The notes under the pieces: generated by a model
Database searches by the model: none
Told to the model about the DNA's origin: nothing
What the model saw: only the letters and a program-made list of their open reading frames with translations
Assembly: GCA_024401055.1 (NCBI GenBank)
Contig: JAKSLT010000021.1
Span: forward strand, 1-35,657
Direction: 5' to 3'
Length of the DNA stretch: 35,657 nt
From: Bacteroidaceae bacterium
GTDB taxonomy: Bacteria > Bacteroidota > Bacteroidia > Bacteroidales > Bacteroidaceae
Made by a program: the position numbers and the translations under genes
In this document: positions 5,001 through 34,975 of the stretch, piece after piece
Numbering within the stretch: the first letter of the stretch is position 1
Layout: each line of letters starts with the position of its first letter

Positions 5001-5073
5001 TTGCGGAGGCTCGACTCGAACGAACGACCTCCAGGTTATGAGCCTGGCGAGCTACCAACTGCTCCACTCCGCG
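5001..5073 (-). tRNA. Initiator tRNA-fMet (anticodon CAT)
   Basis: The 73-nt gene folds as a full cloverleaf. Acceptor arms are CGCGGAG and CTCCGCA, D stem GAGC/GCTC, anticodon stem CCAGG/CCTGG around CTCATAA, and T stem GTTCG/CGAGC. The unpaired C1/A72 end and the A11-T24 pair are known hallmarks of bacterial initiator tRNA. The anticodon stem has A29-T41 where most bacterial initiators have a third G-C pair, so only G30-C40 and G31-C39 remain. The 3' CCA is not encoded (CAC follows A73). Promoter and terminator flank it. Confidence 0.95.
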
Positions 5074-11338: not shown

Positions 11339-11448
11339 CAGTCCTCCCCTGTAAGGACTGGAGTTTCTCCCTATAAGGATTGGAGTTTTATCCTGTAAGG
11401 ACTGGAGTTTTATCCTATAAGGACTGGAGTCCTAACAGGGGAGGACTG
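11339..11448. repeat. Four 22-bp tandem repeats framed by a 13-bp inverted repeat
   Basis: Units lie at 11348-11369, 11370-11391, 11392-11413 and 11414-11435, with consensus CCTRTAAGGAYTGGAG then TTTTAT. The array is bracketed by CAGTCCTCCCCTG (11339-11351) and its exact reverse complement (11436-11448). Units abut without spacers, so this is not CRISPR. The rest of the 417-nt gap between the HD gene and rpsP shows only the rpsP promoter. Confidence 0.9.
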
Positions 11449-15242: not shown

Positions 15243-15293
15243 TGTGTTTATCGGGCCCCACGCGAAACTAATCGTCATTTATATGTTTTTCTA

Positions 15294-15373
15294 CATATGT
15301 GGAAAATAGTTTCGACATATGTAGAAAATAGTTTTGACATATGTGAAAAATACTTTCCACATATGTCGAAACG
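15294..15373. repeat. 22-bp tandem array with CATATG core
   Basis: Three full 22-nt units start at 15294, 15316 and 15338, and a partial fourth starts at 15360. Each begins CATATGT and continues (G/A)(G/A)AAAATA(G/C)TTT. ACATATGT is itself a palindrome repeated about every two helical turns. Confidence 0.88.
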
Positions 15374-17834: not shown

Positions 17835-20513
17835 TTAGAGGATTACTTTCTTGCCGTTCTTCACGAGTATGGCGCCGTGGGAAGCTGCGGCGGGACGGCC
17901 CTGGAGGTCGTATGTGCGTCCGTTGTCTGTTGTCTGTTGTCTTAGCACAGTGCCTACGCCGGTGAGAAGGGGATCGTCGTCGCTGACGATGGCGTCCTCC
18001 ATGCGTATCTGGGCGGCGTTGACGATTTCCATGCTCTCGGCATCAAGGAGGAGGGCGATGAGACGGCAGTTGTCGAGGTCGCTGACGAGGGACTTACCGG
18101 TGGTGTACTTGGGAATGTCGAAGCCAAATCTGTGCTGCTTGGGCTCGCCCTTGACGATGGCGCCGGTGAGGCTGCCTTCCAGACCGAGGCCTTCGGCGCA
18201 GTATTCCATCACGTCGTTATAGATGGGACGCCAGTTGGCGGGCTTCTGCGTGAGTTCGTAGAGCTCGGGGGCGTTCTGCTTGTAGAGGGCCTTGGTCTCG
18301 GAATCTACCTGCGAGGTGAAGTAGTTCATCTGCTGGGCATACTGGAGGTCGTCCTCGGCGAGCACGTAGGTGAGGAGGTAGGGGCAGTAAGCGCAGTCGA
18401 TGTTGAAGATGGTGCTGGTCTGGAGGCCGATGTGCTGGCCGTCCTTGGAGCGTACCACCTTGTCGAAGCCGATGGTGGCCTCCGTTATCTGGCGGCGCAC
18501 GGCGTCAACGTCGTCCTTGATACCGAAGTAGCCGTTGGAGGAACCGCCGTAGGGGTCGCAGGTGTAGAGACGGTTGACGACGCAGGAGGGAGCGCCGGTG
18601 GCACCGAAGGTGGCAAGGACATCGTCCATCATGTAGTTGGACTTCTGGTCCTGACCGGTGTGGATGCCGATGAGGGCGATGTTCTCGCCGTACTTCTCAC
18701 GCAGCATTTCCATGCCTACGAGGCCGCGGGGGCACCAGCCGCACCACGTGCCGGTGTTCTCCTCGATGACGGGCATACGGTCCACGTCCTCACTCTCGTT
18801 CACGGCGATGATGGAGCCGTTGACGTCGGAAGCGATATCCACGTCCTTGCCGTTAATCTTGCTTACCTTTATCTGGAGGCGCTGGCGGGAGGGATCGGCG
18901 GGAGCCTTGATGTCGTCGTTGAGGTTGGCCTGCTCAAGGAAGCGGATGCCGTCCTTGAAGCGTATCTTCTGGGTGTTCTCGCCCACGGTGACGTCGAAGG
19001 TAGCACTCTTGATGGCATCAACACCGTAGTTGGTGAAGGTGGTGTTGAAGGCCACCTTGCTGTCGCCGGCGTAGCAGCGTGAGGACTTCACGGCGTCGAA
19101 GCGAATGTCGTTGTGGGGGAAACCGCCGTTGCCCTCGGTCTCAACATAGCAGAAGAGGCTGGCATAGGTGGTCCACTGATACTGCGACATGAGGCTGGAG
19201 GTGTAGGGGGTGTAGTCCTCTACGCGGCCGTTGTGCCAGTCGGGGTCGTCGTCGCCGCTCATAAAGGCATAGTAGGGGCGGGAGGTGGGGAGGAGATAGG
19301 AGCAGCTGTACCAGTAACCGTCCTTCAGGCCGCCCTTTTCGTCGCGGCCGTTCTTGTAGTTCTCCTTGTATTCGCCGGGATAGACGATGGTGTAGCCAAT
19401 CTGGAGGTTGGGGTGGTCTTTGGTAATGGTGAAGTCGCAGGGGATACCTACCACCTGGTTGCACTTGTAGTAGGGGTCATCGGGGTCCTTGACGTCGAGG
19501 TTGAGGTCGTAGCCGTAGAAGGTGCCCTTGCCGGCAACGTCCTCTTCTTCCTCATCAGCGCCAATCCAGTGTTCCTTGAGGCCGTTGGGCTTGGCGATGA
19601 TGTGGTTGACGGTCTCGGTGAAGTCGTAGTAGTCGCTCCAGAGGAGGCTCTTCTCGGGGTCCTGCTCCATGGGGTCCATAACGAAGAACTGAATCTCGGC
19701 GGCGTTGGGGGGCAGCATGAACCAGAGGTTCTTCACCTTGTTGCCGTAGAACTGGCTGACGACGTCCTCGCGGTAGATTACGTAGTTGAAGCTGGACACG
19801 CCCTTGCGGTAGGGCATCCAGGGCTGAACGTAAACGCTCTTGTTGTCCATGGGAGCGTATGTCAGCACCTTGGCATCCTGCATACTCTTGGCCCAGTTGG
19901 CCTGGAAGTCGCCTTCGATGTCGTTGGGCTCGATGTCAATCTCTTCCTCTTCTTCTTCGTCGCCACCGCCGGTGCTGCGGTTGTCAATCTCGGAGGGAAG
20001 GGTCTGGAAGAAAAGGAAATCCATGCAGGAGCCGTTGATGGACTTGTCGGTCACACCGTACTCCGAAGGCCAGCCGGTGATGGTGGTGCCTTCTCCGTCG
20101 ATATAGATGAAGTCATTGTCGGGAATTTCTTCGCCAAAGAAGCTGATGATCACGTCGGCGCTGATGGTGTAGCAGCCCTTGCGGAAAGCGTTGTCCTTGA
20201 TGTCCCAGGTTTTGGGATTGGAGGAGAGATAGATAATATTGTTAGGGGAATCCCAGTCCATGCAGTTGGAGCCGTTGGCGTGGAATACCCATGAGCCGTT
20301 CTTCTTCTCAAGTCTCCATTCGGGATCGTCGGGGGCGATGGTGGAGGTAATCACCGTGGAGCCCTTGGTGGTAACGAAGTAACCGTTGTCGCAGACAAGG
20401 TAGAATCTCTGGCCGTCAACGGGAGGCTCGGAGGTGAGGCCGTCCGTGTTGACCTGTGCGGCAGCCGTCAAAGTGCAGAGGGCTGCGGCGAGAAGTGTAA
20501 ACAGTTTTTTCAT
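17835..20513 (-). CDS. Large Omp28/thioredoxin-like surface protein with T9SS tail (CGWC)
   Basis: With 892 residues this is the longest and most divergent member of the array. It has a signal peptide (1-20). An N-terminal domain covers ~21-180 and does not match the other paralogues. An acidic linker GGGDEEEEEE follows (183-191), then a long beta-rich region. The thioredoxin-like segment opens IEENTGTWCGWCPRG with C591-G-W-C594, followed by IGIHTGQDQ and GAPSCVVNR as in its relatives. A second pair, C707-A-Y-C710, lies further on. The tail has RQQTTDNG, YDLQGR and NGKKVIL. It is probably surface-exposed and redox-active or disulfide-bonded; substrate unknown. It is last in its transcript, 37 nt after the previous gene. 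Confidence 0.85.
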   Translation of the reverse strand: MKKLFTLLAAALCTLTAAAQVNTDGLTSEPPVDGQRFYLVCDNGYFVTTKGSTVITSTIAPDDPEWRLEKKNGSWVFHANGSNCMDWDSPNNIIYLSSNPKTWDIKDNAFRKGCYTISADVIISFFGEEIPDNDFIYIDGEGTTITGWPSEYGVTDKSINGSCMDFLFFQTLPSEIDNRSTGGGDEEEEEEIDIEPNDIEGDFQANWAKSMQDAKVLTYAPMDNKSVYVQPWMPYRKGVSSFNYVIYREDVVSQFYGNKVKNLWFMLPPNAAEIQFFVMDPMEQDPEKSLLWSDYYDFTETVNHIIAKPNGLKEHWIGADEEEEDVAGKGTFYGYDLNLDVKDPDDPYYKCNQVVGIPCDFTITKDHPNLQIGYTIVYPGEYKENYKNGRDEKGGLKDGYWYSCSYLLPTSRPYYAFMSGDDDPDWHNGRVEDYTPYTSSLMSQYQWTTYASLFCYVETEGNGGFPHNDIRFDAVKSSRCYAGDSKVAFNTTFTNYGVDAIKSATFDVTVGENTQKIRFKDGIRFLEQANLNDDIKAPADPSRQRLQIKVSKINGKDVDIASDVNGSIIAVNESEDVDRMPVIEENTGTWCGWCPRGLVGMEMLREKYGENIALIGIHTGQDQKSNYMMDDVLATFGATGAPSCVVNRLYTCDPYGGSSNGYFGIKDDVDAVRRQITEATIGFDKVVRSKDGQHIGLQTSTIFNIDCAYCPYLLTYVLAEDDLQYAQQMNYFTSQVDSETKALYKQNAPELYELTQKPANWRPIYNDVMEYCAEGLGLEGSLTGAIVKGEPKQHRFGFDIPKYTTGKSLVSDLDNCRLIALLLDAESMEIVNAAQIRMEDAIVSDDDPLLTGVGTVLRQQTTDNGRTYDLQGRPAAASHGAILVKNGKKVIL
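17918..17942. repeat. Heptanucleotide repeat (GTCYGTT)n in coding linker
   Basis: About three 7-nt units (GTCCGTT, GTCTGTT, GTCTGTT) lie in the codons just before the sorting tail of the 892-aa protein. Confidence 0.85.
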
Positions 20514-20550
20514 TTGTGTGTTGTTATTAAGGAATTAAGGGATAAAAGAA

Positions 20551-22413
20551 TTAGCGGGCGAGACGGACTTTGCCGTTCTGTATGTAGAGGCCGCCGGCAG
20601 GGGCGGAGGACAGACGATGGCCGGCGAGGTCGTAGGACGTTGTCCGTTGTCCGTTGTCTGTTGTCTGTTCTCTCAACACGCTGCCTATGCCTTCAGCCAC
20701 TTCCACGCGGGCTTTGCCGGCATTGGCCACGTGGCCCTCGGCATCGGCGACGATGGCCACGACGTATATCTGGTCGTACTTCAGGGCGGCGCGGCCGTAG
20801 TCATTGCAGGTGATGGGCAGGTTGCAGGCGTTCTCGGCCGTAGTGCCGGCCTTGCCGTCGGCGGGCAGGGGGTCGGTGTGCTCGCCCTCTGCGGGCGTGT
20901 AGCTGCTGCCTATCATCACGTCGTTGAAGACGAGGTTGGTGAGTTCGGTGCTGCCGTACTTGCCTCCCTGGGCAAACTCGGCGTAGAGGTTGCGGATTTC
21001 GCAGGTGCCGTCGCCGCGGAAGTTGTTGCGCGTCTCATTCTTGGCGAAGACATTGGCCTGGCGCCACATGCGGAGTGTCTTGTCGTCGGGGTTAGCGGGG
21101 CAAGTGAGGCCGTCGGCGGTGAGGGCGTAGGAGATTTTGCAGCCGGGGCAGTTGTTGAGGAAGTCAACGCTGGCCTTGGCGGCTACCGTCTTGCCGTCGG
21201 GCTGGAGCGTGCCGCTCACGTGCACCTCAACCTCGGGCATGATGGCATTGCAGGCCAGGAAGTCGCCTATAATCCACTCGTCGGGGTCGGAGCCGTAGAG
21301 GGGGTCGAGGGCCTTGGTGCGGCGGTCGAGCAGGCAGGAGGGTGCGGCAGAGAGGCCGAGGGTGGGATAGTTGGGATTATACATGGCGTCGTCCTGATTG
21401 TGCTGGTGGGTGCTGACGGCGATGTAGTTGTCGTAGTGCGTCTTCATATACTCCATGCCGGCCCAGCCGCGGGTGCAGTGCTGGCAGCCCGTGCCGGTGT
21501 GTTCCTCCATCACGGTGTAGCGGGGCACGAGGCGGACGTATATGGTGCCGAGGGCGGAGGAGGAGGTCGGCGTGACGGGCTTACCGTTGACGGACGTCAA
21601 TGTCACGGTGGCGGTGTACTGGCCAATCTCGGCGGGAGTGGGAGCCACGATGTTGATGGTCTGCAACTGGTTGAAGCCGGTGGCGATGTTCACGTCGGCC
21701 GTGCCTTCGGTAGTCTTGCCGCCGAAGTCCACTTTGTAGCCCACCTGCTTGATGGGCGTGCCGCTGTTGCCGCGGACGACGGCTTGGATGTTGGCCGTGG
21801 TGTTGATGCCGCCGCCGAAGTCGAAGACGTCGCCCATGACGGCGTAGTCGCTGGGAAGGGTCACGCCTTTCATGCGCACTTGCAGGCCGCTGCAGCCCCA
21901 GCCTTCGCCGGAGTAGTCGGTCCACGTCTTTTTGTTATAGACCATCAGGCCGCCGGGCTTCGAGGTGCCGGCGGTGAGGATGGGTTCCTTCTCCTGCTTG
22001 GTGGCGGTGGAGATGATGCGGAAGGTGTAGCCCACATACACGTTCTTGCCCTTCTCAAGCTTGTAGGGCTCTTTGAACATGTAGGTGTTGTAGCCCACGC
22101 TGGAGCCGTCGTCGTTGAAGGTGCTGACGAGCGGCGTGTTGATGTCGTCGGCGGAGGCTACGAAGGCGGTGACTTCCCAGGCCTCCTCGGTGGAGAAGGG
22201 CACGTCGATGCCGGTGATGTACGTGCCGTCGAACTGGTCATCGACGGTGAGCAGCACGGCGGCGCCGAACATGCTCTGCGTGGAGAAACCGTGGCCCTGA
22301 AGGGCGCTGAAGTTGTTGTCGGTGTAGCCCCACAGCATGGTGTCGTCGGCAGCGCGGAGGCTACTGATGCAGAGGCTGCACAGAAGGGCTACGAGGAAAA
22401 GCGTTTTTTTCAT
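20551..22413 (-). CDS. Omp28/thioredoxin-like surface protein with T9SS tail (CQHC)
   Basis: The protein has 620 residues. Domain order is a signal peptide (1-21), an N-terminal beta domain opening DDTMLWGY and ending in YVGYTF, an Ig-like domain (about 195-290, with TSVNGKPVTP), and a thioredoxin-like domain starting MEEHTGTGC with C310-Q-H-C313 and continuing RGWAGMEYMK, THQHNQDDAM and APSCLLDRR. A further pair, C422-P-G-C425, is not conserved in the other array members. The end has a Gln/Thr/Asp/Asn linker, YDLAGHRL and NGKVRLAR, a slightly decayed tail. It is very close to the next paralogue upstream (7-nt gap), suggesting tandem duplication. Probably an exported surface protein; activity unknown. 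Confidence 0.87.
   Translation of the reverse strand: MKKTLFLVALLCSLCISSLRAADDTMLWGYTDNNFSALQGHGFSTQSMFGAAVLLTVDDQFDGTYITGIDVPFSTEEAWEVTAFVASADDINTPLVSTFNDDGSSVGYNTYMFKEPYKLEKGKNVYVGYTFRIISTATKQEKEPILTAGTSKPGGLMVYNKKTWTDYSGEGWGCSGLQVRMKGVTLPSDYAVMGDVFDFGGGINTTANIQAVVRGNSGTPIKQVGYKVDFGGKTTEGTADVNIATGFNQLQTINIVAPTPAEIGQYTATVTLTSVNGKPVTPTSSSALGTIYVRLVPRYTVMEEHTGTGCQHCTRGWAGMEYMKTHYDNYIAVSTHQHNQDDAMYNPNYPTLGLSAAPSCLLDRRTKALDPLYGSDPDEWIIGDFLACNAIMPEVEVHVSGTLQPDGKTVAAKASVDFLNNCPGCKISYALTADGLTCPANPDDKTLRMWRQANVFAKNETRNNFRGDGTCEIRNLYAEFAQGGKYGSTELTNLVFNDVMIGSSYTPAEGEHTDPLPADGKAGTTAENACNLPITCNDYGRAALKYDQIYVVAIVADAEGHVANAGKARVEVAEGIGSVLREQTTDNGQRTTSYDLAGHRLSSAPAGGLYIQNGKVRLAR
20639..20674. repeat. Heptanucleotide repeat (GTCYGTT)n in coding linker
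   Basis: Four to five units lie just before the tail of the 620-aa protein and encode TTDNGQRTT. Confidence 0.85.
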
Positions 22414-22420
22414 TTTGATG

Positions 22421-24310
22421 TTATTTGATTGTCTTCTTTCCGTTGTTGATAAAGAGGGAGTGCCCCCCAGGCCGGCTCTGCAACTTGCGGCCTTGAAGGT
22501 CGTAGGGAGTTGTCCCTTGTCCCTTGTCCGTTGTCCGTTGTCTGTTGTCCGTTGTCTGTTGTCTCAAAACCGACCCTATACCCTCCGGCACTTCCACGCG
22601 GCTCTTGCCGGCGTTGGCGATACGCCCTTGGGCGTCGAGGACGAGGGCCACGACGTATATCTTATCGTATTGCAAGGCATCGCGGCAGACGTCGCTGCAA
22701 GTGATGGTCACGTTGCGGGAAGTCTCGCCGGAAGTGCCGGCCTTACCCTCGGCGGGGAGGGCATCGGTGGTCGGCTGTCCGTCGGCGGTGGTCTGGCTGC
22801 TGCCTATCATCACGTCGTTGAAGACGAGGCCGTAAAGCTCTGTGCTGCCGTACTCGCCGCCCTTGGCAAACTCGGCGTAGAAATTGCGGAGTTCGTTGCT
22901 GCCGTCGCGGCGGAAGTGCTCGCGCGTCTCGGCCTGGGCAAAGATATTGGCCTGCATCCAGCGGCGCTGCGTCTTGGCGTCGGCGTCGGCGGGACAGGTG
23001 AGGCCGTCGGCCGTCAGGGCGTAGAAGACGCTGTAGCCCGGGCTGTCGTAGAGGAAATCCACGTTGGCCGTGACGGCAACGGTGGTGCCGTCGGGCTGGA
23101 GCGCACCCGTGGCGCGCACTTCCACCTCGGGCACGATGGCGTTGCAGGCTTCAAAGTCGGCGATGATAAGGGCATTGGTGTCGGAGCCGTACAGAGGGTC
23201 AATGGGGCCGGTCCTGCGGTCGAGGGCACAGCTTGGCGCACCGCTTAGTCCTATATCGGGGTAGTTCTTGTTCACCATGGCGTCGTCGTCGTTGTAGTTG
23301 TGGGCGCTGATGGCGATGAAGCGGTCGTAGTGGTTGCGCATATACTCCATGCCGGCCCAGCCGCGGGTGCAGTGCATGCAGCCCGTGCCGGTCTTTTCTT
23401 CCATCACGGTGTAGCGGGGCACGATGCGCGTGTAAAGGGTGGCGGTGGCGGCGGCAGTGGTGGGGCTGACGGGCTTACCGTTGACGGATGTCAGAGTCAC
23501 GGAGGCGGGATACTGGCCCACAGAGGGGAGCGTGGGCACGGTGAGGGTGACGCTGGCCGTCTGGCTGGAGCCGGCGGGGATATTGACGTCGGCCGTGCCC
23601 TCACTGGTCTGGTCTCCGAGCGTCACGCTGTAGCCTATCTTGCTAATAGCGTTGGCGCTGTTGCTGCGGATGAGGGCCTGGAAGGTGGCAGTGGCGTTGA
23701 TGGCGCCGCTGAAGTCGTAAACCTTGCCCATAGTGGCGTTGTCGCTGGGAAGGACGAGGTCTTTCAGGCGCACCTGCAAGCCGCTGTTGCCCCAACCCGC
23801 GCCGGAGTAGTCGCTCCATTCCTTTTTATTGTATATCATCAGGCCGCCAGGCATAGCCTCGCCGCCCGTGAGGATGGGGGCGCGCTCTTCCTGCGTGGCC
23901 GTGGAGATGATGCGGAAGGTGTAACCCACATACACGTTCTTGCCCTTCTCAAGCCTGTAGGGCTCTTTGAACAGGTACGTGTTGTAGCCGATGCTGGAGC
24001 CGTCGTCGTTGAAGGTGCTGACGAGGGGCGTGTTGATATCGTCGGCGGAGGCCACGAAGGCCGTCACTTCCCAGGCTTCCTCGGTGTTGAAGGGCACGTC
24101 GATGCCGGTGATGCTGGCTCCGTCGAACATATCGTCCACCGTGAGGAGCACGGCGGCGCCGAACATATTCTGCTGGTTGAAGCCGTTGGCCTGAAGGGCG
24201 GCATAGTCGGCAGGGGTGTAGCCCCACAGCAGGGTGTCGTCGGCAGCGCGGAGCATCGTGCCGCAGAGGCTGGCAAGAAGAAGGATTAAAAAGGATATGC
24301 GTTTCATCAT
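22421..24310 (-). CDS. Omp28/thioredoxin-like surface protein with T9SS tail (CMHC)
   Basis: The protein has 629 residues from the chosen ATG (MMKRISFL); a TTG five codons earlier is less likely. The layout is the same as in its downstream twin: signal peptide, a WGY-containing beta domain, an Ig-like domain with TSVNGKPVSP, then MEEKTGTGC with C311-M-H-C314, RGWAGMEYMR, SAHNYNDDDAM and APSCALDRR. The second Cys pair of the twin is replaced (DSPGY). The linker is long and repetitive (QQTTDNRQRTTDKGQGTT), followed by YDLQGRKL and NGKKTIK. It probably starts a new transcript after the 617-nt repeat-filled gap upstream. Surface location is inferred from the tail. Confidence 0.87.
   Translation of the reverse strand: MMKRISFLILLLASLCGTMLRAADDTLLWGYTPADYAALQANGFNQQNMFGAAVLLTVDDMFDGASITGIDVPFNTEEAWEVTAFVASADDINTPLVSTFNDDGSSIGYNTYLFKEPYRLEKGKNVYVGYTFRIISTATQEERAPILTGGEAMPGGLMIYNKKEWSDYSGAGWGNSGLQVRLKDLVLPSDNATMGKVYDFSGAINATATFQALIRSNSANAISKIGYSVTLGDQTSEGTADVNIPAGSSQTASVTLTVPTLPSVGQYPASVTLTSVNGKPVSPTTAAATATLYTRIVPRYTVMEEKTGTGCMHCTRGWAGMEYMRNHYDRFIAISAHNYNDDDAMVNKNYPDIGLSGAPSCALDRRTGPIDPLYGSDTNALIIADFEACNAIVPEVEVRATGALQPDGTTVAVTANVDFLYDSPGYSVFYALTADGLTCPADADAKTQRRWMQANIFAQAETREHFRRDGSNELRNFYAEFAKGGEYGSTELYGLVFNDVMIGSSQTTADGQPTTDALPAEGKAGTSGETSRNVTITCSDVCRDALQYDKIYVVALVLDAQGRIANAGKSRVEVPEGIGSVLRQQTTDNRQRTTDKGQGTTPYDLQGRKLQSRPGGHSLFINNGKKTIK
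22509..22564. repeat. Heptanucleotide repeat, seven to eight units, in coding linker
   Basis: This is one of the two longest copies. Its units are GTCCCTT, GTCCCTT, GTCCGTT, GTCCGTT, GTCTGTT, GTCCGTT, GTCTGTT and part of another. Three units give seven residues, so any change that is not a multiple of three units breaks the frame. Confidence 0.9.
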
Positions 24311-24380
24311 TTTTTGTTCAAGCAACAGTTGCGAAATTCTATTTTTGCTCTATGTGATTGACCGTAACTGAAAATTTTTT

Positions 24381-24404
24381 GTCAAAATATTTTACAGTTT
24401 CGGG
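24381..24404 (+). repeat. Dispersed near-palindromic AT motif, copy 2
   Basis: Identical to 174-197 over GTCAAAATATTTTACAGTTT and CGGG. Confidence 0.85.
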
Positions 24405-24643
24405 GTGTTTTCTTAGCGTTTTTTGGCCGTGGAGGGCAGCGCGCGACGTCTCGGGCGGAAATACGCGATTTTTGATTACTTTGTTAAACGACTTATTTAT
24501 ATAGTGTTAAGTCTGCAAGAGGAATGACGGATATTCTTTTAGGTGCGCTACTCCCGCATTTAGTTGCGAAAAGGCGCCGTAGGAAATTTGTTTTTTTGTG
24601 ATTTTTTCGGAAAACGGCGGGTTCCAGTGAAAACTAATCCTCC

Positions 24644-24718
24644 TTTAATTTGAACTAGTCCTGATTTAATTCGAACTAGTCCTGATTTAATTTGCACTAG
24701 TCCTCCTTTAGTTTCTGG
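24644..24718. repeat. 21-bp tandem array with ACTAGT core
   Basis: Full units start at 24644, 24665 and 24686 (consensus TTTAATTYGMACTAGTCCT + 2), with partial units on both sides. ACTAGT is a palindrome repeated every 21 nt, two helical turns. Confidence 0.9.
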
Positions 24719-24767
24719 TAAAAGGGAAGTAGTGAAAATTAAAAGGGAGATAGTGAAAATTAAAAGG
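24719..24767. repeat. Second 21-bp array, adjacent
   Basis: Two full units at 24726-24746 and 24747-24767, of the form GARRTAGTGAAAATTAAAAG + G, with partial flanks. The sequence differs from the neighbouring array but the period is the same. Confidence 0.85.
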
Positions 24768-24862
24768 GATGAAGGAGCAAAATGATGGGAAACCGGCACG
24801 TTCGGTCCGCCTTTTTGCGCATTTAGGCCTCATCGCGCCGCGTTTTCTCCTTTTTTCGTTTT

Positions 24863-24883
24863 GTCAAAATTTTTTACAGTTTC
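24863..24883 (+). repeat. Dispersed near-palindromic AT motif, copy 3
   Basis: GTCAAAATTTTTTACAGTTTC. It differs from copies 1 and 2 by one base in the AT core. Confidence 0.8.
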
Positions 24884-24942
24884 AAATAATCGTTATGGAC
24901 GGTTGGGCAGTAATGCAGTCGGAAAATTTCCATGCCGCACCG

Positions 24943-26835: not shown

Positions 26836-28661
26836 TTTGCTATTACTTTTTTACCTTGTTGTATGTAGATATTGCCGTGAAGCTTCAAGCCAACGGCGCG
26901 ACCAGAGAGGTCAGTCGTCTGTTGTCCGTTGTCTGTTGTCCCCAGTCCGTTGTCTGTTGTCTGTTGTCTTAACACATTGATGCCCTCGGTCGCCCCTACC
27001 CTGCAACGGGCGGCGTTGGCCACGGTGCCGTCGGCATTGAAGACGATGGCGGTGAGATATACCTTGCCGTAATCCATGGCCTGGCGCATAAGACTGGAGG
27101 CATTGAGGGCCACGGTGGAGGCGGCAAAGGCGGTGGCGCCCTTTGTGGTGGGCGAGAGGGTGACGGAGCCGTCCTTGATGCTGCCGTTGGTCTGCTTCGT
27201 CCACGTAGAGCCGCACATCACGTCGTTGTAAGTCAGGAAGATGTAGCCGTCGCCGTATGCGCCGCCCTTGCAGAAGATGGCGAGGTCGCCCATGCCGTTG
27301 GGGTCGGTCTGGTACAGGTCGTTGTTCTGACGCCACGGGCTACCGGTGCCCGTGATGCCGTCGGCGGTGAGGACGAAGGCCACACGGCTGCCGGGACTGC
27401 TGGCAAGGAAGGTCACGTCGGCGGAGGCATTCACGCTATTGTGGCTGGCATCGGCCCAGGAGCCTGCCACGGTGATGACGGCGGTGGGATCCACGTCGCT
27501 GTACTTGTTCACGCACTGCGCCATGCCCTCGCCCCATTCACCGTAATAGGGGTCGATGTTGATGGCCGTGCGATCCACGCAGCAACTGGGGGCACCGTCC
27601 CAAGGCAGGTCGGCATAGTCGGGACAGTACATGGGGTCGTTGTTGTTGTATTGGTGCACGGCCACGACCAAGGCCTGGTCGGCCTGCTTCTCATGCACAC
27701 GTTCGAGGGCCAGCCAGCCACGCGGGCAGTTGCCGCACCATGTGCCGGTGAATTCTTCTATGAGCGTGAGGCGCTGATGGAGTTCGTCGCGCACGTCGAG
27801 GTCGAAGCCGGCGGCGCTATGGTCGTTGTAGGGCTTGCCGTTAACGGCCGTGATGCTCACGAGCCCCTGATACGTGCCGGCCTTCTTGGGGGCCGTGAAG
27901 GAGATGGCCACATTGCCGTACTGGTTCAGGCCGCTGGGGATGGGCTCGGCCAGTGTGGCGGTGCCGTTCTGCGTCTTGCCGTCCAGCTCCACGGCATAGC
28001 CGATGCTCTGCACGGGTTCTGCGCTGCTGCTGGCCAGTGTCAGCTCGGCAAGGGCTTCGCCGCCTTTCTGGCACTTGCGGCTCTGCACCTGAAGGATGCT
28101 TACCTTGCTCTCGTCGAGCTGCATGCCGGTGACGAAGAGCTGCAAGGCGCTCACGCCCAGTTCGGGATAGTCGTACCAGCGGCCGAACTTGTTCTCGTAG
28201 AGCCACAGACCGTCCTTCGCCTCGCCGTCGGCGGTGCAGATGGGGTAATAGTAATTGGTGTCGAAGCTGTAGCCGATGAAGAAGCCTTCGGCCGGAATGG
28301 CGAGGGGACTCTTGAGGTCCACGCGGGTATAGCCGTTGCCTTTCACCTTGCCGCTGTATTTCTGCTCAAAGGTCTTGGCCGGCAGCCAAGCGGCGGCATA
28401 CTCGATGGATGGCACTGACCAGATGCTGATGTTCGTGGCGTCGTCGGTAGCAAAGGGAAGGTTTACGGCCGTTATCTTGGCGCCTTTCAGCTCGCCGTCG
28501 CCGGGCACCCACATGGCTATTTCCGTCCGGCCGCCACCGCTGCCGGCCACGGAGAAATCGGGCGCGGTGCTGTAGCCCCACAGGGTCTCCTGCGAGAATG
28601 CCGTGAGGGGAAGGACGAAAAGGAATACGAAAAGGAGGGAACTGAGTAAAGGTTTCTTCAT
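26832..28661 (-). CDS. Omp28/thioredoxin-like surface protein with T9SS tail (CGNC)
   Basis: The protein has 609 residues. It has a signal peptide (about 1-23, ending AFSQ), an N-terminal beta domain with ETLWGYST and FIGYSFD, an Ig-like domain with ITAVNGKPYND, then IEEFTGTWC with C309-G-N-C312, RGWLALERVH, AVHQYNNNDPM and APSCCVDR followed by DPYYGEW. The double Cys in APSCC is unusual within the array. The linker is long and repetitive, then TDLSGRAV and QGKKVIAK. It is separated from the upstream paralogue by 146 nt containing a hairpin and an alternating tract, and overlaps the downstream gene by ATGA. Probably surface-exposed. Confidence 0.87.
   Translation of the reverse strand: MKKPLLSSLLFVFLFVLPLTAFSQETLWGYSTAPDFSVAGSGGGRTEIAMWVPGDGELKGAKITAVNLPFATDDATNISIWSVPSIEYAAAWLPAKTFEQKYSGKVKGNGYTRVDLKSPLAIPAEGFFIGYSFDTNYYYPICTADGEAKDGLWLYENKFGRWYDYPELGVSALQLFVTGMQLDESKVSILQVQSRKCQKGGEALAELTLASSSAEPVQSIGYAVELDGKTQNGTATLAEPIPSGLNQYGNVAISFTAPKKAGTYQGLVSITAVNGKPYNDHSAAGFDLDVRDELHQRLTLIEEFTGTWCGNCPRGWLALERVHEKQADQALVVAVHQYNNNDPMYCPDYADLPWDGAPSCCVDRTAINIDPYYGEWGEGMAQCVNKYSDVDPTAVITVAGSWADASHNSVNASADVTFLASSPGSRVAFVLTADGITGTGSPWRQNNDLYQTDPNGMGDLAIFCKGGAYGDGYIFLTYNDVMCGSTWTKQTNGSIKDGSVTLSPTTKGATAFAASTVALNASSLMRQAMDYGKVYLTAIVFNADGTVANAARCRVGATEGINVLRQQTTDNGLGTTDNGQQTTDLSGRAVGLKLHGNIYIQQGKKVIAK
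26914..26971. repeat. Heptanucleotide repeat in coding linker, interrupted
   Basis: Two runs of about three units each flank CCCCA. They encode the Gln/Thr/Asp/Asn linker of the CGNC protein. Confidence 0.85.
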
Positions 28662-28672
28662 GCGCGTGTTCT

Positions 28673-28713
28673 TGCGTACGTATGCGTACGCGTAATAATA
28701 TAAATAGGTATAT
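28673..28713. other. Alternating CG/TA tract upstream of the CGNC gene
   Basis: TGCGTACGTATGCGTACGCG followed by TAATAATATAAATA. This would lie in the leader of the CGNC-protein mRNA. Confidence 0.6.
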
Positions 28714-28759
28714 CCCTACGGATAGGAACACCCGTCTTGCAGGCATTCCTATCGTAGGG
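28714..28759 (-). terminator. Hairpin between two array genes, possible attenuator
   Basis: On the minus strand, CCCTACGATAGGAA pairs with TTCCTATCCGTAGGG (one bulge) around a 17-nt loop, followed by AT-rich sequence without a strong T run. It sits between the CAWC gene and the CGNC gene and may end or attenuate the upstream transcript. Confidence 0.6.
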
Positions 28760-28768
28760 GGGAGGTAA

Positions 28769-28793
28769 GTGAAAAGTTAAAAGTGAAAAGTTG
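28769..28793. repeat. Heptanucleotide repeat (GTGAAAA)n
   Basis: Units GTGAAAA, GTTAAAA, GTGAAAA, GTT in non-coding DNA just after the CAWC gene. Same family as 7952-7993. Confidence 0.75.
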
Positions 28794-28807
28794 CGGGGTG
28801 AGGCCTT

Positions 28808-30697
28808 TTATCTTATCACCTTCTTGCCGTTCTGGATTACGACGCCGTGAGCCTGGGTGGCGATGCGGCCGGAGAGGTCAACGGCAGTCTGCTGGCCGTT
28901 ACCCGTTGTCTCCTGCAGCACGGTGCCGATGCCTTCGGCTTCTTCAACCTTGGCACGGGCAGCGTTGACGATTTCACCGGAAATCTTATCAAGCACGAGG
29001 GCTACGACGTTCACCTGGTCGTACTTGATGGCGGGCTTGCCGTAAGAGGAAGCGGTAATGCTGACGGTGTAGGCGTTTTCAACCTTCTCGCCAACCTTGG
29101 AGAGGGTGGGAAGAGCCTCGGCCTTGTTCTTGTGGGCGGTGTTCCAGGAGCTTCCAATCAGCACGTCGTTGAAGACGAGGTTGGCAATCTGGCTCTGGCC
29201 ATACGTGCCACCCTTGCAGATGAGGGCAGCCTTCTTGCCGAGTTCGGTCTTGGTGTCAAAACCGGCTTGAGTGGTGGTGTAGTTGGCGTAGTTGTTGTAC
29301 TGCTTCCAGCGGTTCCTGATGGTGGTGCTGGCACCCTCGGGGCAGGTCATGCCGTCGCCGGTCAGCACGTAGGCAATCTCGTAGCCTTCGCAGTCGGTGA
29401 GGAATTCAATGCTGGCCTTGGCGTCCACCTTGGAGTGAGTCTCGTCGGTGTAGGCACCGCTGACGGTCACGTCAACGAAAGGTGCGATGGCACCGTAGTA
29501 ATCCAGGTCGGCATCGATGGTGGTGCCGAAGCCGCCCTCATAGGGGTCAACCTGGCCATCCTTGCGGTCAACCATAGCGCCGGGAGCGCCCTTCCACTGG
29601 ATGGAAGCGTAGTTGTTGTTGTACATCGGGTCGGCAGAATCGTACTGGTGGATGGCAATGCCGATTACTTCGGGACGGAACTCCTTAATGTATTCCATAG
29701 CAGCCCAGCCGCGGGGGCACCAGGCGCAAGTGGTGCCGGTGAACTCTTCAATGACGGTGTTGCGCTTGACGGAACGTGAGAGCACGTTCACCTTGGCAAC
29801 GACAGGGTCGGCAGTGACGGCCACGCCGTTCACCTTTGTAATGGTCACAATGGCATTGTAGCCGCCTTCCTTTTCGGGCAGCGTTATGTCAATGGAGATA
29901 GTGCCGGGCTTATTGATACCTGAAGGTATATTGACCTTGGCTTCATCGGCAACAGTCTGTCCGTTGAGCTCAACGGTGTAGCCTACGCTTGTGATGGCGT
30001 TGCTGCTGGTGCCCATCAGGTGGCACTTGAGGGCAGACTTGTCGCCCTTGCCGCCATATACGTTGTCAATAGCCGTAAGGACAACATTATTCTCGGGGAG
30101 TTTGAGACCCTTCACGAGAAGTTGCAGGGGGCTGGCGCCAAACTGGCCGGAGTAGTCCTCCCACTTGCCGCCGACCAGCAGGTTGAGAGCACCGGGAACG
30201 AGGTCTGCGCCCGTTGCGATGGGGTACTGCTCTGTTTGTGCCGAGGCTGAGCTGATGGTGAACTTATAGCCCACGTACAGCGTCTCGCCCTTTGTCATCT
30301 TATATTCCTTTTCCAATGCTACGTTGTTGTAGCCTTTCTTCACACTGCCGGAGAGTGTGCCGGCGGCCAGGTCGGTGCCACCGAGGGTCTTGGTAACGAA
30401 CACGGAAACGCCCGTGGCCTTCGTGGTGAAGAAGGGCACGGCCACGCCTTGGATAGTTGCGCCGTCCAATAATTCGTCCACTACCACTTTGATGGCAGCG
30501 CCGAACTCGCCTGTGCCGCCTGTGCCGACGCAAGCGTAGCCGAAGTTTTCGTCGTAGGCATAGCCCCACATGTCCGTGCCGTCAAGGCTGGCGGCGTGGA
30601 GAGGTCCCTGGGCTTTTATCTGAATCTTTTGAAGGCGCTGGGCCTGCATGCTGATGCCGAACAGTACGGCCACAGCGAGAAGGAGTAGTTTCTTCAT
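28808..30697 (-). CDS. Omp28/thioredoxin-like surface protein with T9SS tail (CAWC)
   Basis: The protein has 629 residues. It has a signal peptide (1-19, ending MQAQ), an N-terminal beta domain with DMWGYAYD and YVGYKFT, an Ig-like domain with ITKVNGVAVT, then IEEFTGTTC with C324-A-W-C327, RGWAAMEYIK, AIHQYDSADPM, GAPGAMVDRK and DPYEGGF. The resolving-site Cys of APSC is absent (APGA). The linker is short (QETTGNGQQT) and the heptanucleotide repeat is eroded. The tail VDLSGRIATQ ... NGKKVIR is canonical. It follows the Cys-rich gene by 18 nt, so both are probably on the transcript that starts at the TlpA gene. Confidence 0.88.
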   Translation of the reverse strand: MKKLLLLAVAVLFGISMQAQRLQKIQIKAQGPLHAASLDGTDMWGYAYDENFGYACVGTGGTGEFGAAIKVVVDELLDGATIQGVAVPFFTTKATGVSVFVTKTLGGTDLAAGTLSGSVKKGYNNVALEKEYKMTKGETLYVGYKFTISSASAQTEQYPIATGADLVPGALNLLVGGKWEDYSGQFGASPLQLLVKGLKLPENNVVLTAIDNVYGGKGDKSALKCHLMGTSSNAITSVGYTVELNGQTVADEAKVNIPSGINKPGTISIDITLPEKEGGYNAIVTITKVNGVAVTADPVVAKVNVLSRSVKRNTVIEEFTGTTCAWCPRGWAAMEYIKEFRPEVIGIAIHQYDSADPMYNNNYASIQWKGAPGAMVDRKDGQVDPYEGGFGTTIDADLDYYGAIAPFVDVTVSGAYTDETHSKVDAKASIEFLTDCEGYEIAYVLTGDGMTCPEGASTTIRNRWKQYNNYANYTTTQAGFDTKTELGKKAALICKGGTYGQSQIANLVFNDVLIGSSWNTAHKNKAEALPTLSKVGEKVENAYTVSITASSYGKPAIKYDQVNVVALVLDKISGEIVNAARAKVEEAEGIGTVLQETTGNGQQTAVDLSGRIATQAHGVVIQNGKKVIR

Positions 30698-30715
30698 CTT
30701 TATTTCCTTTACAAA

Positions 30716-31759
30716 TTAGCGAATAACTTTCTTGCCGCCCTTGATGAGGAGGCCCTTGGCGCCCTGAGAGGCTACGCGGCCCTGGAGGTCGTATGCCTTC
30801 TGCGACTGAGAGCTTACTGCGGCCTGCTGTATGCCTTCGGGGCCAGAACCTTTCTCATAAACATACTTCACGGTGTAGGTGTTACCTTTCGCACCGTTAA
30901 CATAGAACTCCATGGTGCAAGTGCACTCGCCGGGCTCATATTCATAGCTAGCCATGCTCATGCAGTTCCATTCGGTAAGGATGTCCTTTGTCTCACCGGC
31001 CTTGATGACTTCAGCACCCGTCTCGTAGGTGGCACCGGAGGGATACATCTGACACATACCGCCCAGGCAGCACTGGAAGGAACCGAAGCTGTACTTGGGA
31101 GTGAACTTCATCGTCACCTTAGCATCGGTTAATTCATTATTCCTCAAGGAAGGGCTGTGGAAGATTACGTCACCCCACTCAGGGTCAATCTCTGGCGTGA
31201 TAATCATTGTCTCGCCGTCCTTGTACTCTTTGCCGTCATTAGGATTAACAAGGACTACACCCGGCAGAGGATTGTCATTGGTCTTTTCTTGATAAACATA
31301 CTTCACGGTGTAGGAGTTACCTTTCTCACCGTTAACGTAGAATTCCATGGTGCAAGTGCACTCGCCATACTTGTACTCGAAAGTCGCACTGTCCATGCAG
31401 TTCCATTCGGTAAGGATACTCTTTGTCTCACCGGCCTTGATGGCTTCAGCGCCCGTCTCGTAGGTGGCACCGGAGGGATACATCTGACACATGCCGCCAA
31501 GGCAGCACTGGAAAGAGCCGAAGCTGTACTTGGGAGCGAACTTCATCGTCACCTTTACATCGGCCTTGCCTTTATTCTTCAATGAAGGGCTCTCAAAAAT
31601 TACGTCGCCCCACTCTGGGTCAACATTGGGCGTGATAATCATCGTCTCACCGTCCTTGTACTCTTTGCCATCGTTAGGGCTGACGAGTACTACGTCCTTC
31701 TGGGCGAAGGTGGGGGCAGCCAGAAGTGCGGCTGCGAATAAAGCGTAAAGTTTCTTCAT
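30716..31759 (-). CDS. Duplicated Cys-rich secreted protein with T9SS tail
   Basis: The protein has 347 residues and belongs to no family I recognise. It has a signal peptide (1-19). Two ~134-residue repeats cover 23-156 and 168-301, offset exactly 145 residues. Each has six cysteines in the same places: FQCC, GMCQ, WNCM and ECTC (85, 86, 91, 121, 134, 136, and the same +145). All twelve are even in number and suited to disulfides. The tail has YDLQGRVASQ and GGKKVIR, without the heptanucleotide linker. Lying between the Omp28 lipoprotein and the thioredoxin-like array, it is a candidate client or partner of the redox proteins; that is inference from position and Cys content. Confidence 0.85.
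   Translation of the reverse strand: MKKLYALFAAALLAAPTFAQKDVVLVSPNDGKEYKDGETMIITPNVDPEWGDVIFESPSLKNKGKADVKVTMKFAPKYSFGSFQCCLGGMCQMYPSGATYETGAEAIKAGETKSILTEWNCMDSATFEYKYGECTCTMEFYVNGEKGNSYTVKYVYQEKTNDNPLPGVVLVNPNDGKEYKDGETMIITPEIDPEWGDVIFHSPSLRNNELTDAKVTMKFTPKYSFGSFQCCLGGMCQMYPSGATYETGAEVIKAGETKDILTEWNCMSMASYEYEPGECTCTMEFYVNGAKGNTYTVKYVYEKGSGPEGIQQAAVSSQSQKAYDLQGRVASQGAKGLLIKGGKKVIR
30857..31258 (-). repeat. In-gene duplicated module, copy 2
   Basis: DNA-level direct repeat of 31292-31693, almost identical over the Cys-rich core, so the duplication is recent or kept uniform by gene conversion. Confidence 0.85.
31292..31693 (-). repeat. In-gene duplicated module, copy 1
   Basis: First copy of the Cys-rich module, paired with 30857-31258. 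Confidence 0.85.
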
Positions 31760-31823
31760 AGAAATAAAAGTTTTTGAGTTATTATTTATTTAGATTTGTC
31801 AAGAGTTAGCGGCATGCCGCGGG

Positions 31824-32642
31824 TTAAGCGTTCACGAGGGGGAAACGCTTAACCTGCAGCATCTCGCCGTCCTTGGAGGACACGATTACTACGACATACA
31901 TATTGGCTGCCGTCCACGCGTTGTTGATTGCCAGGCTGTAGTGGCAGGCTGCGGCGGTGCCCTCCGTCAGGCTTACGGCATCGCCGTCGATGGGCGTGAG
32001 CGTGGTGCGGAAGATGTTGTTATGTCTGAACTCGCGGTTGCGCGAACCGTCGGGCATCTTCTGCCAACTTATGAAGTCGTTCTCCGTCACCCACACCTGT
32101 ACGAGGGCGTCGAGGCTCTGCGTGGTGCTGATGTTGAAGTTTACGTCATAGGTGTTGGCGTCGCTCTCGCTGACGGTGCCTGTGAAGTCGGAGATTTTCA
32201 CGGGAGTGGTCTGTGCGGCGTAGGTGTGCACAAGTTCGGGCAGGCGGTTCTGCACCTCGGGGCCGCCGCAGAGGGGTTCGCCGATGCGGTTGACGCGCAC
32301 GGCGGGCTGGGGCAGATTTTCGTTGCCGAGCTTCAGGAAATATTCCTGTCCCTCCTTCGTAAAGAGGGGAGTGCCCATGCCGAGCATGCCGCTGTGGATA
32401 CCCACTGCTACTACGTGGCCCGAATAGAAGTGCTCCAAGTTTTCAACGACGGTCGTGGCCGTGGGACAGTTGGGGCAGTTCTGACCGGTGAAGTCCTCGA
32501 TGAGCACAGTGCGGGATTCCCCCGTGGTGGGCACGATGGGGCCGACTTCTTCCTCCACGAGGCGGTCTTCATAACTGATATCGCTGCACGAGGCGGCCAG
32601 CAGGGCAGCCACGGCGAGGCTAAAGAGATGTATATGCTTCAT
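31824..32642 (-). CDS. Omp28-family outer-membrane lipoprotein
   Basis: The protein has 272 residues. Its lipoprotein signal peptide ends LAAS-C19. The thioredoxin-like region opens IEDFTGQNC with C56-P-N-C59 and continues with GHVVAVGIHSG, LPQPAVRVNR and a beta-rich C-terminal half (VSESDANTYDVNFNIST). It has no T9SS tail, so it is lipid-anchored, unlike the larger relatives downstream. Omp28 was first described as a surface protein of Porphyromonas gingivalis; its biochemical role is unsettled. It lies 15 nt after the DUF6029-like gene. As the simplest member it may be the ancestor-like form of the array. Confidence 0.88.
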   Translation of the reverse strand: MKHIHLFSLAVAALLAASCSDISYEDRLVEEEVGPIVPTTGESRTVLIEDFTGQNCPNCPTATTVVENLEHFYSGHVVAVGIHSGMLGMGTPLFTKEGQEYFLKLGNENLPQPAVRVNRIGEPLCGGPEVQNRLPELVHTYAAQTTPVKISDFTGTVSESDANTYDVNFNISTTQSLDALVQVWVTENDFISWQKMPDGSRNREFRHNNIFRTTLTPIDGDAVSLTEGTAAACHYSLAINNAWTAANMYVVVIVSSKDGEMLQVKRFPLVNA

Positions 32643-32657
32643 TTCAGATGGGGAAAA

Positions 32658-34379
32658 TCAGAAGTTGTAGTTGTAGTTGATGGTTAAGCCCTTCGAGGCG
32701 GGGATGTAGCGGCACACGCCGCCGGTGCAGTTCACGCCGGCACGGGTACGGCCGAAGCCTACTTGCAGGCGGTGGCCCTTGTGGCTGCCTGTCACGCTGA
32801 AGTTGTAGTAGTGCGTCACGTCGCCGTAGCTGTCGGTCTTCTCCGGGCGGCCTATCTGGTCGCTGACGGTGAACATCAGGTAGGGCGCTACGCTGAGTTC
32901 AAGGAGGCCGAAGCCCCAGTCGCCGCTCTCGTGGTCGGTGTAGAGGTACTGGGCCTCACCGCGCAGCGTGAGCTTGTTGTTGATTTTCCATTTGGGCTCA
33001 AAGATGAAGACGTGCGAGCGGATGTGGCCTTCGTGCTTCTGGATGATGCGGTTGAAGTCCTGATACATATACATCGCGTGGATGTCCCATCTCTTGCTGA
33101 GCTTCTTCTCCAGCTGGATGTCGAGATCCTGATAATACGTGTCGTGACCCCATTTCCAGAAGGCCGAGCCGTAGCCGTCGGTGGTGGCCAGAAGGTCGTT
33201 CACGTTGCCTTCGGCGTCAACGCCGTGCCAGTTGTAGTCGATGGGCTTCACGAGGGAGTAGTTCAGTTTCAGCTTGGTGCCGTACTTGCCGCCCATGGCC
33301 GTCTTCTTCTTGAAGTTGTAGCCCAGGCTGCCCTGGTAGGCCCATTCGCCGTTGTTCTCGCCCTCGGCCATGGTGCTGTAGGGATAGAGGGCTGCCAGCG
33401 CGTAGGTGTGGTCCAGGCAGAAGGCGGGCTGATGGTTGATGAAGGAGGTGGTGGAGTGCGTCTCGTTGCGCTTCGAACGGAAGGCCATGTTGTCGCTGCG
33501 CTTGGTCTGCAACAGCACGGAGAGGCCTTTCTTCGAATACGTGGCGGAGAGCATGGCGGCACGGCCGGTGCGGTAGATATTGCCGTTCAGGGAGTTGGGA
33601 TCCTGGCTCTTCTGGGCGTACTCGCCGAGGATGTTGAAGCCGCCCTTGCGGAAGTTCACGCGGGCATCGAAGGCGTTGACGAACTCAGGCACGTTGAGGC
33701 TGTAAGCGGGGTCCTTGCTGTAGAGCTTATCCTTGTAGTTTTCCCACTTATTCACCCATGAACCGCCCACGAGCAGATGCATGCCTTTCTTCTTCATGGG
33801 CTTTATCCACTGGTCGAGGCTCATCTCCACGTCGGCACCGCTCACGATGCTGCCGTTGTGCTCCCAGTAGTTGCGCTGCACGCCGCTCAAAGCCTTGATT
33901 TGCAGGCCTTCCACGGGGGTGATGACGGCGCGGCCGCCGGTGAGGCTGTTATCGACGCCGAGGGTGCGTTCCTCGTAGGTGCGGAGGATAAAGCCGCTGC
34001 CGAATTGCTCATAGAAGGAGCCCATGGTGAGTTCCACCCTCTTCAGGCGGCCCTTCACCCACAGGTTGGGCACGCCCCAGCCCTTGAAGTCCTCGTTGGG
34101 CGAGGTGGCGAAGCCCGGCATGGGCCACTGCGTCAGTTCGAAGCGGCCGCCGGCATCAACGCTCTTGCTCTGCAGCATGAGGTCAACGTAGGTGTTGGTA
34201 AGAAAATACTTATTGTCGTACTCTGAGGTGCCGATGCGCTCATCCTGGAGCGGCGCCACCATCATGTCGCTCTGCACGGAGCCGGTGACGCTCACCTGGG
34301 CCGTCAGCTGCTGACAACAGACAACGGACAACAGACCGAGAGCGGCGAAGCGAAGAGTCTTTCTCATAGGATATTTCAT
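32658..34379 (-). CDS. DUF6029-like outer-membrane beta-barrel protein
   Basis: The protein has 573 residues. It has a signal peptide (ending LTAQ near residue 28; a second Met at residue 5 is an equally good start). The rest is alternating beta strands rich in aromatic residues (WVNKWENYKDKLYS, GTKLKLNYSLVKPIDYNW, HAMYMYQDFNRI) ending in an aromatic residue (NYNYNF), the usual signature of an outer-membrane barrel. I assign DUF6029 from its length, its opening region and its place between a TlpA-like and an Omp28 gene, a grouping I recall from other Bacteroidales. Function unknown; an export or anchoring role for the partner lipoprotein is speculative. Confidence 0.8.
   Translation of the reverse strand: MKYPMRKTLRFAALGLLSVVCCQQLTAQVSVTGSVQSDMMVAPLQDERIGTSEYDNKYFLTNTYVDLMLQSKSVDAGGRFELTQWPMPGFATSPNEDFKGWGVPNLWVKGRLKRVELTMGSFYEQFGSGFILRTYEERTLGVDNSLTGGRAVITPVEGLQIKALSGVQRNYWEHNGSIVSGADVEMSLDQWIKPMKKKGMHLLVGGSWVNKWENYKDKLYSKDPAYSLNVPEFVNAFDARVNFRKGGFNILGEYAQKSQDPNSLNGNIYRTGRAAMLSATYSKKGLSVLLQTKRSDNMAFRSKRNETHSTTSFINHQPAFCLDHTYALAALYPYSTMAEGENNGEWAYQGSLGYNFKKKTAMGGKYGTKLKLNYSLVKPIDYNWHGVDAEGNVNDLLATTDGYGSAFWKWGHDTYYQDLDIQLEKKLSKRWDIHAMYMYQDFNRIIQKHEGHIRSHVFIFEPKWKINNKLTLRGEAQYLYTDHESGDWGFGLLELSVAPYLMFTVSDQIGRPEKTDSYGDVTHYYNFSVTGSHKGHRLQVGFGRTRAGVNCTGGVCRYIPASKGLTINYNYNF
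34313..34337. repeat. Heptanucleotide repeat in a signal peptide, inverted relative to the gene
   Basis: Three units of the same family, here read as LLSVVCCQQ inside the signal peptide of the DUF6029-like protein. This is the opposite orientation, relative to the coding strand, from the copies before the sorting tails. Confidence 0.85.
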
Positions 34380-34398
34380 GGATTAGACTGACAAAGAA

Positions 34399-34450
34399 TT
34401 TTTAATTCCAAATTCTTAATTCTTAATTCTTAATTCATAATTCCCAATTA
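34399..34450. repeat. Heptanucleotide repeat (TTCTTAA)n
   Basis: Seven units in register: TTTTTAA, TTCCAAA, TTCTTAA x3, TTCATAA, TTCCCAA. They run right up to and into the stop codon of the TlpA-like gene. Confidence 0.88.
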
Positions 34451-34975
34451 CTCCGCGGGCTGTTCTTCCACGGGAGCGGCCTCGCGGGCTGCCTTCAGCT
34501 CGCGCAGCTTCTCAAGGAGTTCGAGTTCGGCACCCTCGGTGTAGCCGTTGTGGCGGTAAACGATTTTGCCGTTGCCGTCGATGATGAGCACGTAGGGGAT
34601 AGTCTGTATGCCCAGAGCGCGCTTGAAGTCGCTGTTGGGGTCGAGGAGCACGTCATACTCCCAGCCGTTTTCGTCCACGAGGGGCTTCACCTTGTGGATG
34701 TTCTGAGCCTGGTCGATGCTGATGGCCACGAGGCGCACGCCGGTCTCTTCCTTCCATTCGTCGTACACTTCGCTGATGGCCGTAAGCTCACGGTTGCAGG
34801 GCTTGCACCATGTTGCGAAGAAGTCGATGATGACGGGCTGGCCGTGTGTACCGAGGGTGTCGGTCTGCACCTTGTTGCCGTCCATGTCGTTGAGGGTGAA
34901 TGCGGGCACTTGGGCCTTTGCGGCGGTCACTGCGGCGAAAGCGCAGATGACGAGGAGGAGTTTTTGAAGTTTCAT
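34448..34975 (-). CDS. TlpA-like thioredoxin, exported
   Basis: The protein has 175 residues. It has a signal peptide (1-21, ending AKAQ). A single thioredoxin fold follows with FFATWCKPCN (C57-K-P-C60), SIDQAQN and the cis-Pro loop TIPYVLIID. A Glu/Pro-rich C-terminal tail (REAAPVEEQPAE) ends it. It is of the TlpA/ResA class, which reduces disulfides in the periplasm and needs electrons from a membrane partner not seen here. It leads the ten-gene minus-strand run and is a plausible upstream donor for the surface proteins; that link is inference. Confidence 0.93.
   Translation of the reverse strand: MKLQKLLLVICAFAAVTAAKAQVPAFTLNDMDGNKVQTDTLGTHGQPVIIDFFATWCKPCNRELTAISEVYDEWKEETGVRLVAISIDQAQNIHKVKPLVDENGWEYDVLLDPNSDFKRALGIQTIPYVLIIDGNGKIVYRHNGYTEGAELELLEKLRELKAAREAAPVEEQPAE

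Follow-up and report, generated by a model that had tools for sequence, protein, structure and literature searches.

Ten consecutive open reading frames (ORFs) on the minus strand were found to fill positions 17835-34975 of a 35,657-nucleotide stretch of DNA from a Bacteroidaceae bacterium of the gut (assembly GCA_024401055.1, contig JAKSLT010000021.1; the whole stretch is here called the window), in agreement with an earlier note on this DNA which had proposed a ten-gene surface redox array. The locus begins with a core of three genes encoding TlpA, DUF6029 and Omp28 proteins, followed by a short gene with a sorting-type tail and six large genes encoding thioredoxin-type proteins, P1 to P6. 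We give a probability of about 0.5 to the reading that the locus is a cell-surface thiol-disulfide system, which would open disulfide-stabilised host or dietary proteins to proteolysis, most likely by net reduction. The reading that outside proteins are opened for digestion was drawn because a putative binding domain, a spacer and a disulfide exchange module are combined in the array proteins, and because a related module is fused to a protease elsewhere. The interpretation in the earlier note was partly supported; it did not include the genome-wide expansion, the lectin-like N-domain, the protease fusion, the invariant cysteine pair of DUF6029 or the links to HBP35 and the trypsin factor of Paraprevotella.

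The array consists of P1 (28808..30697, 629 aa, CAWC), P2 (26832..28661, 609 aa, CGNC), P3 (24943..26835, 630 aa, CLYC), P4 (22421..24325, up to 634 aa, CMHC), P5 (20551..22413, 620 aa, CQHC) and P6 (17835..20513, 892 aa, CGWC and a second CAYC), all on the minus strand. A TTG start is listed for P4, and the likely start is the MM five codons in. In P1, a lectin-like domain (37-198) is followed by an Ig domain (204-308), a thioredoxin module of the HBP35/Omp28 type (307-590) and a tail at about 605-629. The active site CAWC is at 324-327 and the putative cis-proline at 372. P1 was the sole member modelled, and a thioredoxin fold surrounds its CxxC, as the earlier note had expected; the closest solved structure was that of HBP35. 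The lectin-like N-domain is seen by model in P1 and by alignment in P2-P5, and the whole P1 architecture was recovered by alignment in P2 and P3. The claim of six tandem paralogues held for P2-P5, which are 33-39% identical to P1, whereas P6 has a different N-terminal half and was joined to the others by profile matches of its thioredoxin module and tail. No family reached its cut-off when P1-P6 were searched against Pfam and NCBIfam; the Omp28 model NF033782 gave 12.6-36.3 bits, below its cut-off of 150. Single-sequence searches of the PDB with P1, Omp28 and the 347-aa product of the short tailed gene gave no matches at the limits used.

A CxxC is present in eight of the ten genes (TlpA, Omp28 and P1-P6), as claimed before; the EExTGTxC-like lead-in was seen in seven of these eight and is replaced by an ordinary FFATWCKPC in TlpA. 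Among 158 distinct family proteins the CxxC was counted on a profile alignment in 157, a loose pattern count agreeing with this, and P372 and H350 (P1 numbering) were invariant in the array-family alignment. The 65 named loci were fetched with two peptide patterns, one of which included the second active-site cysteine, so this choice accounts in part for the invariance of that residue in A3. Where loci were instead taken from genomes with a profile (L107 onwards), the CxxC was present in 30 of 31 distinct proteins.

The core genes are located upstream. TlpA, a TlpA/ResA-like thioredoxin of 175 aa with CKPC, presumably periplasmic (34448..34975), matched AhpC-TSA (PF00578) over cut-off with 86.1 bits, and the ResA model NF002854 with 86.7 bits, below its cut-off of 170. 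The 573-aa DUF6029 outer-membrane beta-barrel (32658..34379) scored 549 bits with PF19494 (cut-off 27); its model (predicted local distance difference test score 78.8) gave porins and ushers as structural matches. A sequence search of DUF6029 against the PDB, judged uninformative, gave BstC at E 0.35 and, for a short segment, RecA entries. The only invariant cysteines of DUF6029 are C551 and C556 (NCTGGVCR), ahead of the last strand. After pieces below 450 or above 600 aa and duplicates were dropped, this pair was kept in 38 of 38 distinct full-length proteins, and also in 20 of 20 order-wide loci. The 272-aa Omp28 lipoprotein with CPNC (31824..32642) scored 166.7 bits with NF033782 and 88.8 bits with Pfam Omp28 (PF11551), both above cut-off. 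By pattern, a lipobox was found in 41 of 49 Omp28 proteins with acidic residues following, a feature which is not decisive for surface exposure.

The prediction that this core is co-conserved beside a variable number of paralogues was borne out across loci and genomes. TlpA, DUF6029 and Omp28 flank the thioredoxin gene in 30 of the 65 named loci (two of the 30 are near-identical stretches of one metagenome-assembled genome, and several of the other loci stop at a contig end). Eighty genomes evenly spread over the order were also sampled: DUF6029 was found in 45 and the thioredoxin profile in 44, with both in 42, DUF6029 only in 3, the profile only in 2 and neither in 33 (Fisher p 1e-16, uncorrected for shared ancestry). 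The adjacent Omp28 itself accounts for part of this association. With frames of at least 400 aa only, the profile matched in 31 of 45 genomes with DUF6029 versus 2 of 35 without (p 3e-09, likewise uncorrected). Of the 45 DUF6029-bearing genomes, 20 loci were inspected, mostly from the higher-scoring ones; TlpA was present in 19, and a small Omp28 gene was the next match after DUF6029 in 16. In the open-access literature searched, no function of DUF6029 or of the core was found described, save one suggestion of a polysaccharide pore for DUF6029.

The genome contains SprA (2586 bits), PorU (862) and, adjoining PorU, PorV (424), the three type IX secretion components searched; with these and the fold of P1, neither of the results that the earlier note had named as refuting it came up. 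Its count of seven sorting-type tails also stood: by eye, tails of the YDLxGR...GKK type were recognised in seven of the ten products (P1-P6 and the 347-aa protein), those of P5 (GHR...GKV) and P3 (GKKHF) being the loosest. The curated tail model PF18962 was rejected as a detector; it had three matches genome-wide and none in the window. In the PorA-like family, the short tails from L004, L005, L007 and L050 can be aligned to the longer tails of the KxxxK type found in relatives (e.g. NGKTIKQIVK) if three residues are taken as deleted, and the tails in the window belong to the short type. The profile of this family matched the C-termini of the crystallised enzymes 8bbl (E 0.00012) and 4kca (E 0.0019), with a weak match to 7jvi (E 0.11). 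PF18962 misses the window tails, and their assignment as sorting tails follows from alignment; the location of the array proteins at the surface is therefore an inference.

The array is not a chance assembly, because the best matches of P1-P5 are colinear in Candidatus Equimonas faecalis, where five genes pair with them in order at 46, 68, 67, 71 and 72% identity. The order of TlpA, DUF6029, Omp28 and the short tailed gene is the same in the Equimonas locus, whose contig ends with the first part of a P6-type gene. A tree was built from 114 thioredoxin regions, those below 200 aa or 60 bits being left out; in it the window/Equimonas pairs for P1-P5 had support of 0.966, 1.0, 1.0, 0.38 and 0.971. 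P2 and P3 are 29-34% identical to Equimonas members other than their counterparts; for P4 and P5, comparison of each with the counterpart of the other gave 65%. Because the ordered counterparts pair both in identity and in the tree, the array seems for the most part to be older than the two species and to have been kept. Another horse-gut genome (L005) contained the core, three array-type genes, a P6-type gene and one more.

The claim of six large tailed proteins was correct for the window, beyond which the genome contains more. Although 83% complete, the genome contains 21 tailed proteins of the array type (tails judged by eye), six in the window and 15 elsewhere. Over 58 genomes at genus level, matches to the thioredoxin profile ranged from 0 to 21; 22 genomes had none, and this genome and G021 had 21 each, a count which for this genome includes the Omp28 lipoprotein and omits one tailed protein. 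The next highest count among the 80 order-wide genomes was 7. One member (L091:787-4713) joins a C10 cysteine protease and its Spi propeptide to a whole module of the thioredoxin array. Equimonas, too, has a C10 protease with an Omp28 module (L147), and one in G021 (L148) had an Omp28 part below the Pfam limit that matched the A5 profile. A P6-like gene (L085:3512-6181) lies just upstream of PorU and PorV. Its overall identity to P6 is 68%, with 41-52% in the first 400 columns of the alignment and 85-90% in columns 500-900, a pattern as after partial gene conversion.

Besides PorA, treated below, three known systems are suitable for comparison. HBP35 (PG0616) of Porphyromonas gingivalis has in common with modelled P1 the thioredoxin fold around the CxxC, through which HBP35 can reduce insulin in vitro (PMC2907840). 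According to the same paper, HBP35 has 344 aa and its active cysteines are residues 48 and 51, which, unlike in the array proteins, leaves no room for N-terminal lectin-like and Ig domains. Omp28 lipoproteins (NF033782, PF11551; PG2173), with one true member in the locus, have the CxxC module in common with the array, but the array proteins exceed twice their length and end in tails, with no lipobox. The third is the trypsin-degrading 00502/00509 locus of Paraprevotella clara: PMC9477747 describes 00502 as annotated Omp28-related, type IX-dependent and containing WD40 and Ig-like domains, and as recruiting trypsin and speeding its autolysis. An Omp28 relation and Ig-like domain(s) are common to 00502 and P1. 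Seven relatives of 1215-1297 aa contained an Omp28 domain above cut-off (7/7), a CxxC (7/7) and a Big_5 Ig-like domain (3/7, one above cut-off). In the three that were read, N-terminal repeats resembled a propeller by eye, which is the basis of the beta-propeller reading, the family profile having found only a Kelch protein (E 0.54). Three of the seven, in L107, L108 and L113, adjoin the same core. If 00502 belongs to the 1215-1297-aa family, it may act by reducing the disulfides of trypsin; this can be tested because 00502-like proteins carry the same CxxC module. The main text of PMC9477747 contains neither 'thioredoxin' nor 'disulf', and in the open-access literature searched neither a tandem array of this kind nor a redox role for 00502 was described.

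The proposed system may be depicted as follows. Beside the core of periplasmic TlpA, DUF6029 barrel and Omp28 lipoprotein, the array proteins would be exported and anchored by the type IX system. The N-terminal domain of each would bind a particular target, the Ig domain would act as a spacer, and the HBP35/Omp28-type thioredoxin module would exchange disulfides in the bound target. Reduced targets would then be degraded by proteases, among them the C10 cysteine protease of the cell itself and trypsin from the host, and the number of paralogues and their varied CxxC dipeptides would reflect different targets. Computation supports the fold of P1, the conservation of the active site, the presence of secretion machinery, the conserved core, the old order of the array and the protease fusion; the direction of exchange, the ligands and the roles given to TlpA and DUF6029 are those that we infer. 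Several observations weigh against this scheme. No electron source outside the cell was identified. The complementation of an E. coli dsbA mutant by HBP35 (PMC2907840) makes oxidation as possible as reduction. The CxxC dipeptides of the array vary, with CxHC forms included, and the sole exception among the 158 proteins (L115:11782-13641, 620 aa) is a full-length member without any CxxC. The main text of PMC9477747 attributes trypsin autolysis by 00502 to recruitment and oligomerisation, not redox. Further, 00502 has an N-terminal WD40 domain, whereas P1 has none and its N-domain is lectin-like by model, and 00502 is a putative member of the 1215-1297-aa family. DUF6029 was also found in four of the seven sampled genomes without PorV over cut-off, some of them incomplete, and a strict tie of the core to type IX secretion was not shown. 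A PorV match was present in 77 of the 80 genomes (73 over cut-off), and because PorV is nearly universal in the sample, its association with DUF6029 could not be judged.

A bolder extension, rather unlikely in our estimate, makes the core an ancient outer-membrane thiol relay delivering reducing power to the cell surface: periplasmic TlpA would set the redox state of the DUF6029 barrel, whose invariant cysteines form a Cx4C loop at the outer end, the barrel would hand this on to the Omp28 lipoprotein, and Omp28 would keep the exported array reduced. The predicted outer position of that loop speaks against direct contact with TlpA, and because of it a pore, or charging before export, is an equally open variant. 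A folding role is possible but on the unlikely side, with TlpA, Omp28 and the array making or correcting disulfides in the cell's own surface proteins, for example DUF6029 and the PorA-like protein with their Cx4C loops, or cysteine-containing type IX cargo. The invariant Cx4C pairs of these two families, both beside thioredoxin genes, would fit such a catalyst, as would the dsbA complementation. The large binding-type N-domains and 21 copies in one genome nevertheless exceed housekeeping need; the protease fusion (L091) also speaks against this role, as does the low copy number in most of the sampled genomes that contain the core.

Two further explanations were weighed. That the thioredoxin domains are non-catalytic scaffolds of an adhesin set seems unlikely; lectin-like and Ig domains are present, the N-domains of P1-P5 differ more from one another (mean identity 0.33) than does the first thioredoxin segment (0.42), and the L115 protein manages without a CxxC, but a scaffold would not need a CxxC in 157 of 158 proteins nor the invariant P372 and H350. 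We consider it about equally unlikely that the array consists of HBP35-like haem binders for iron acquisition. HBP35, the closest solved structure, binds hemin (PMC2907840), and a 2026 preprint proposes an iron role for a predicted type IX-secreted thioredoxin of Muribaculaceae (PMC13404670). Haem binding is, however, known for HBP35 only, and a shared fold does not show it for the array; no haem-uptake or TonB family was found among the 20 window proteins, a subset of its ORFs, that were scanned with Pfam.

The short tailed gene (30716..31759, minus strand) encodes a 347-aa cysteine-rich, possibly PorA-like protein of two units of about 145 aa and a tail. It contains an internal duplication of 435 bp (30857-31678, 86% alike); relatives in the same locus position had a single unit in those read. 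C86 and C91 (Cx4C) are invariant in 24 of 24 rows of the PorA-like family. Like this gene, PorA of P. gingivalis (PG2172) is a short tailed gene adjoining Omp28 (PG2173, a neighbour by locus number). It differs in that the window copy is internally duplicated. With profile A4 the PorA N-domain (6kjk) was matched weakly (E 0.081), whereas A7, a larger profile, gave no such match at E values of 1 or below.

Along the ten genes the spacing is -4 to 146 bases, with the exception of 617 before P4. The element TAACTTTG is located 108 bases before the tlpA ATG and resembles the -7 element of Bacteroidales; a promoter motif of the -7 type was looked for in the 617-bp gap and none was found. This gap (24326-24942) contains 21-nt direct repeats of two types, and in the equivalent Equimonas region the neighbouring open frames leave no comparable gap. 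RACAACN heptanucleotide repeats on the minus strand code for the linker that precedes the tail in P2-P6 (26920-26968, 25049-25069, 22529-22563, 20638-20665 and 17921-17941); the five Equimonas counterparts that were read had none in their linkers. The genome contains 45 such sites, 14 of them within array-profile matches and mostly at the tail end. If one unit were gained or lost, the tail would no longer be in frame, which might serve as a switch of surface anchoring. Two 22-nt tandem repeats of 3.8 copies each (11347-11448 and 15288-15371) lie in the other half of the window, and a tRNA gene (5001-5073) was its sole Rfam match at the gathering score.

In the literature searched, surface thioredoxins of this kind were described singly, as HBP35, whereas here 21 occur in one genome. 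The exchange of disulfides by a CxxC module offers a testable mechanism for how surface proteins of the Paraprevotella type make trypsin destroy itself, and the locus is a candidate for the means by which redox power could be exerted beyond the outer membrane. If the relay were true, these bacteria would bring reducing power to their surface to unlock disulfide-bonded host proteins.
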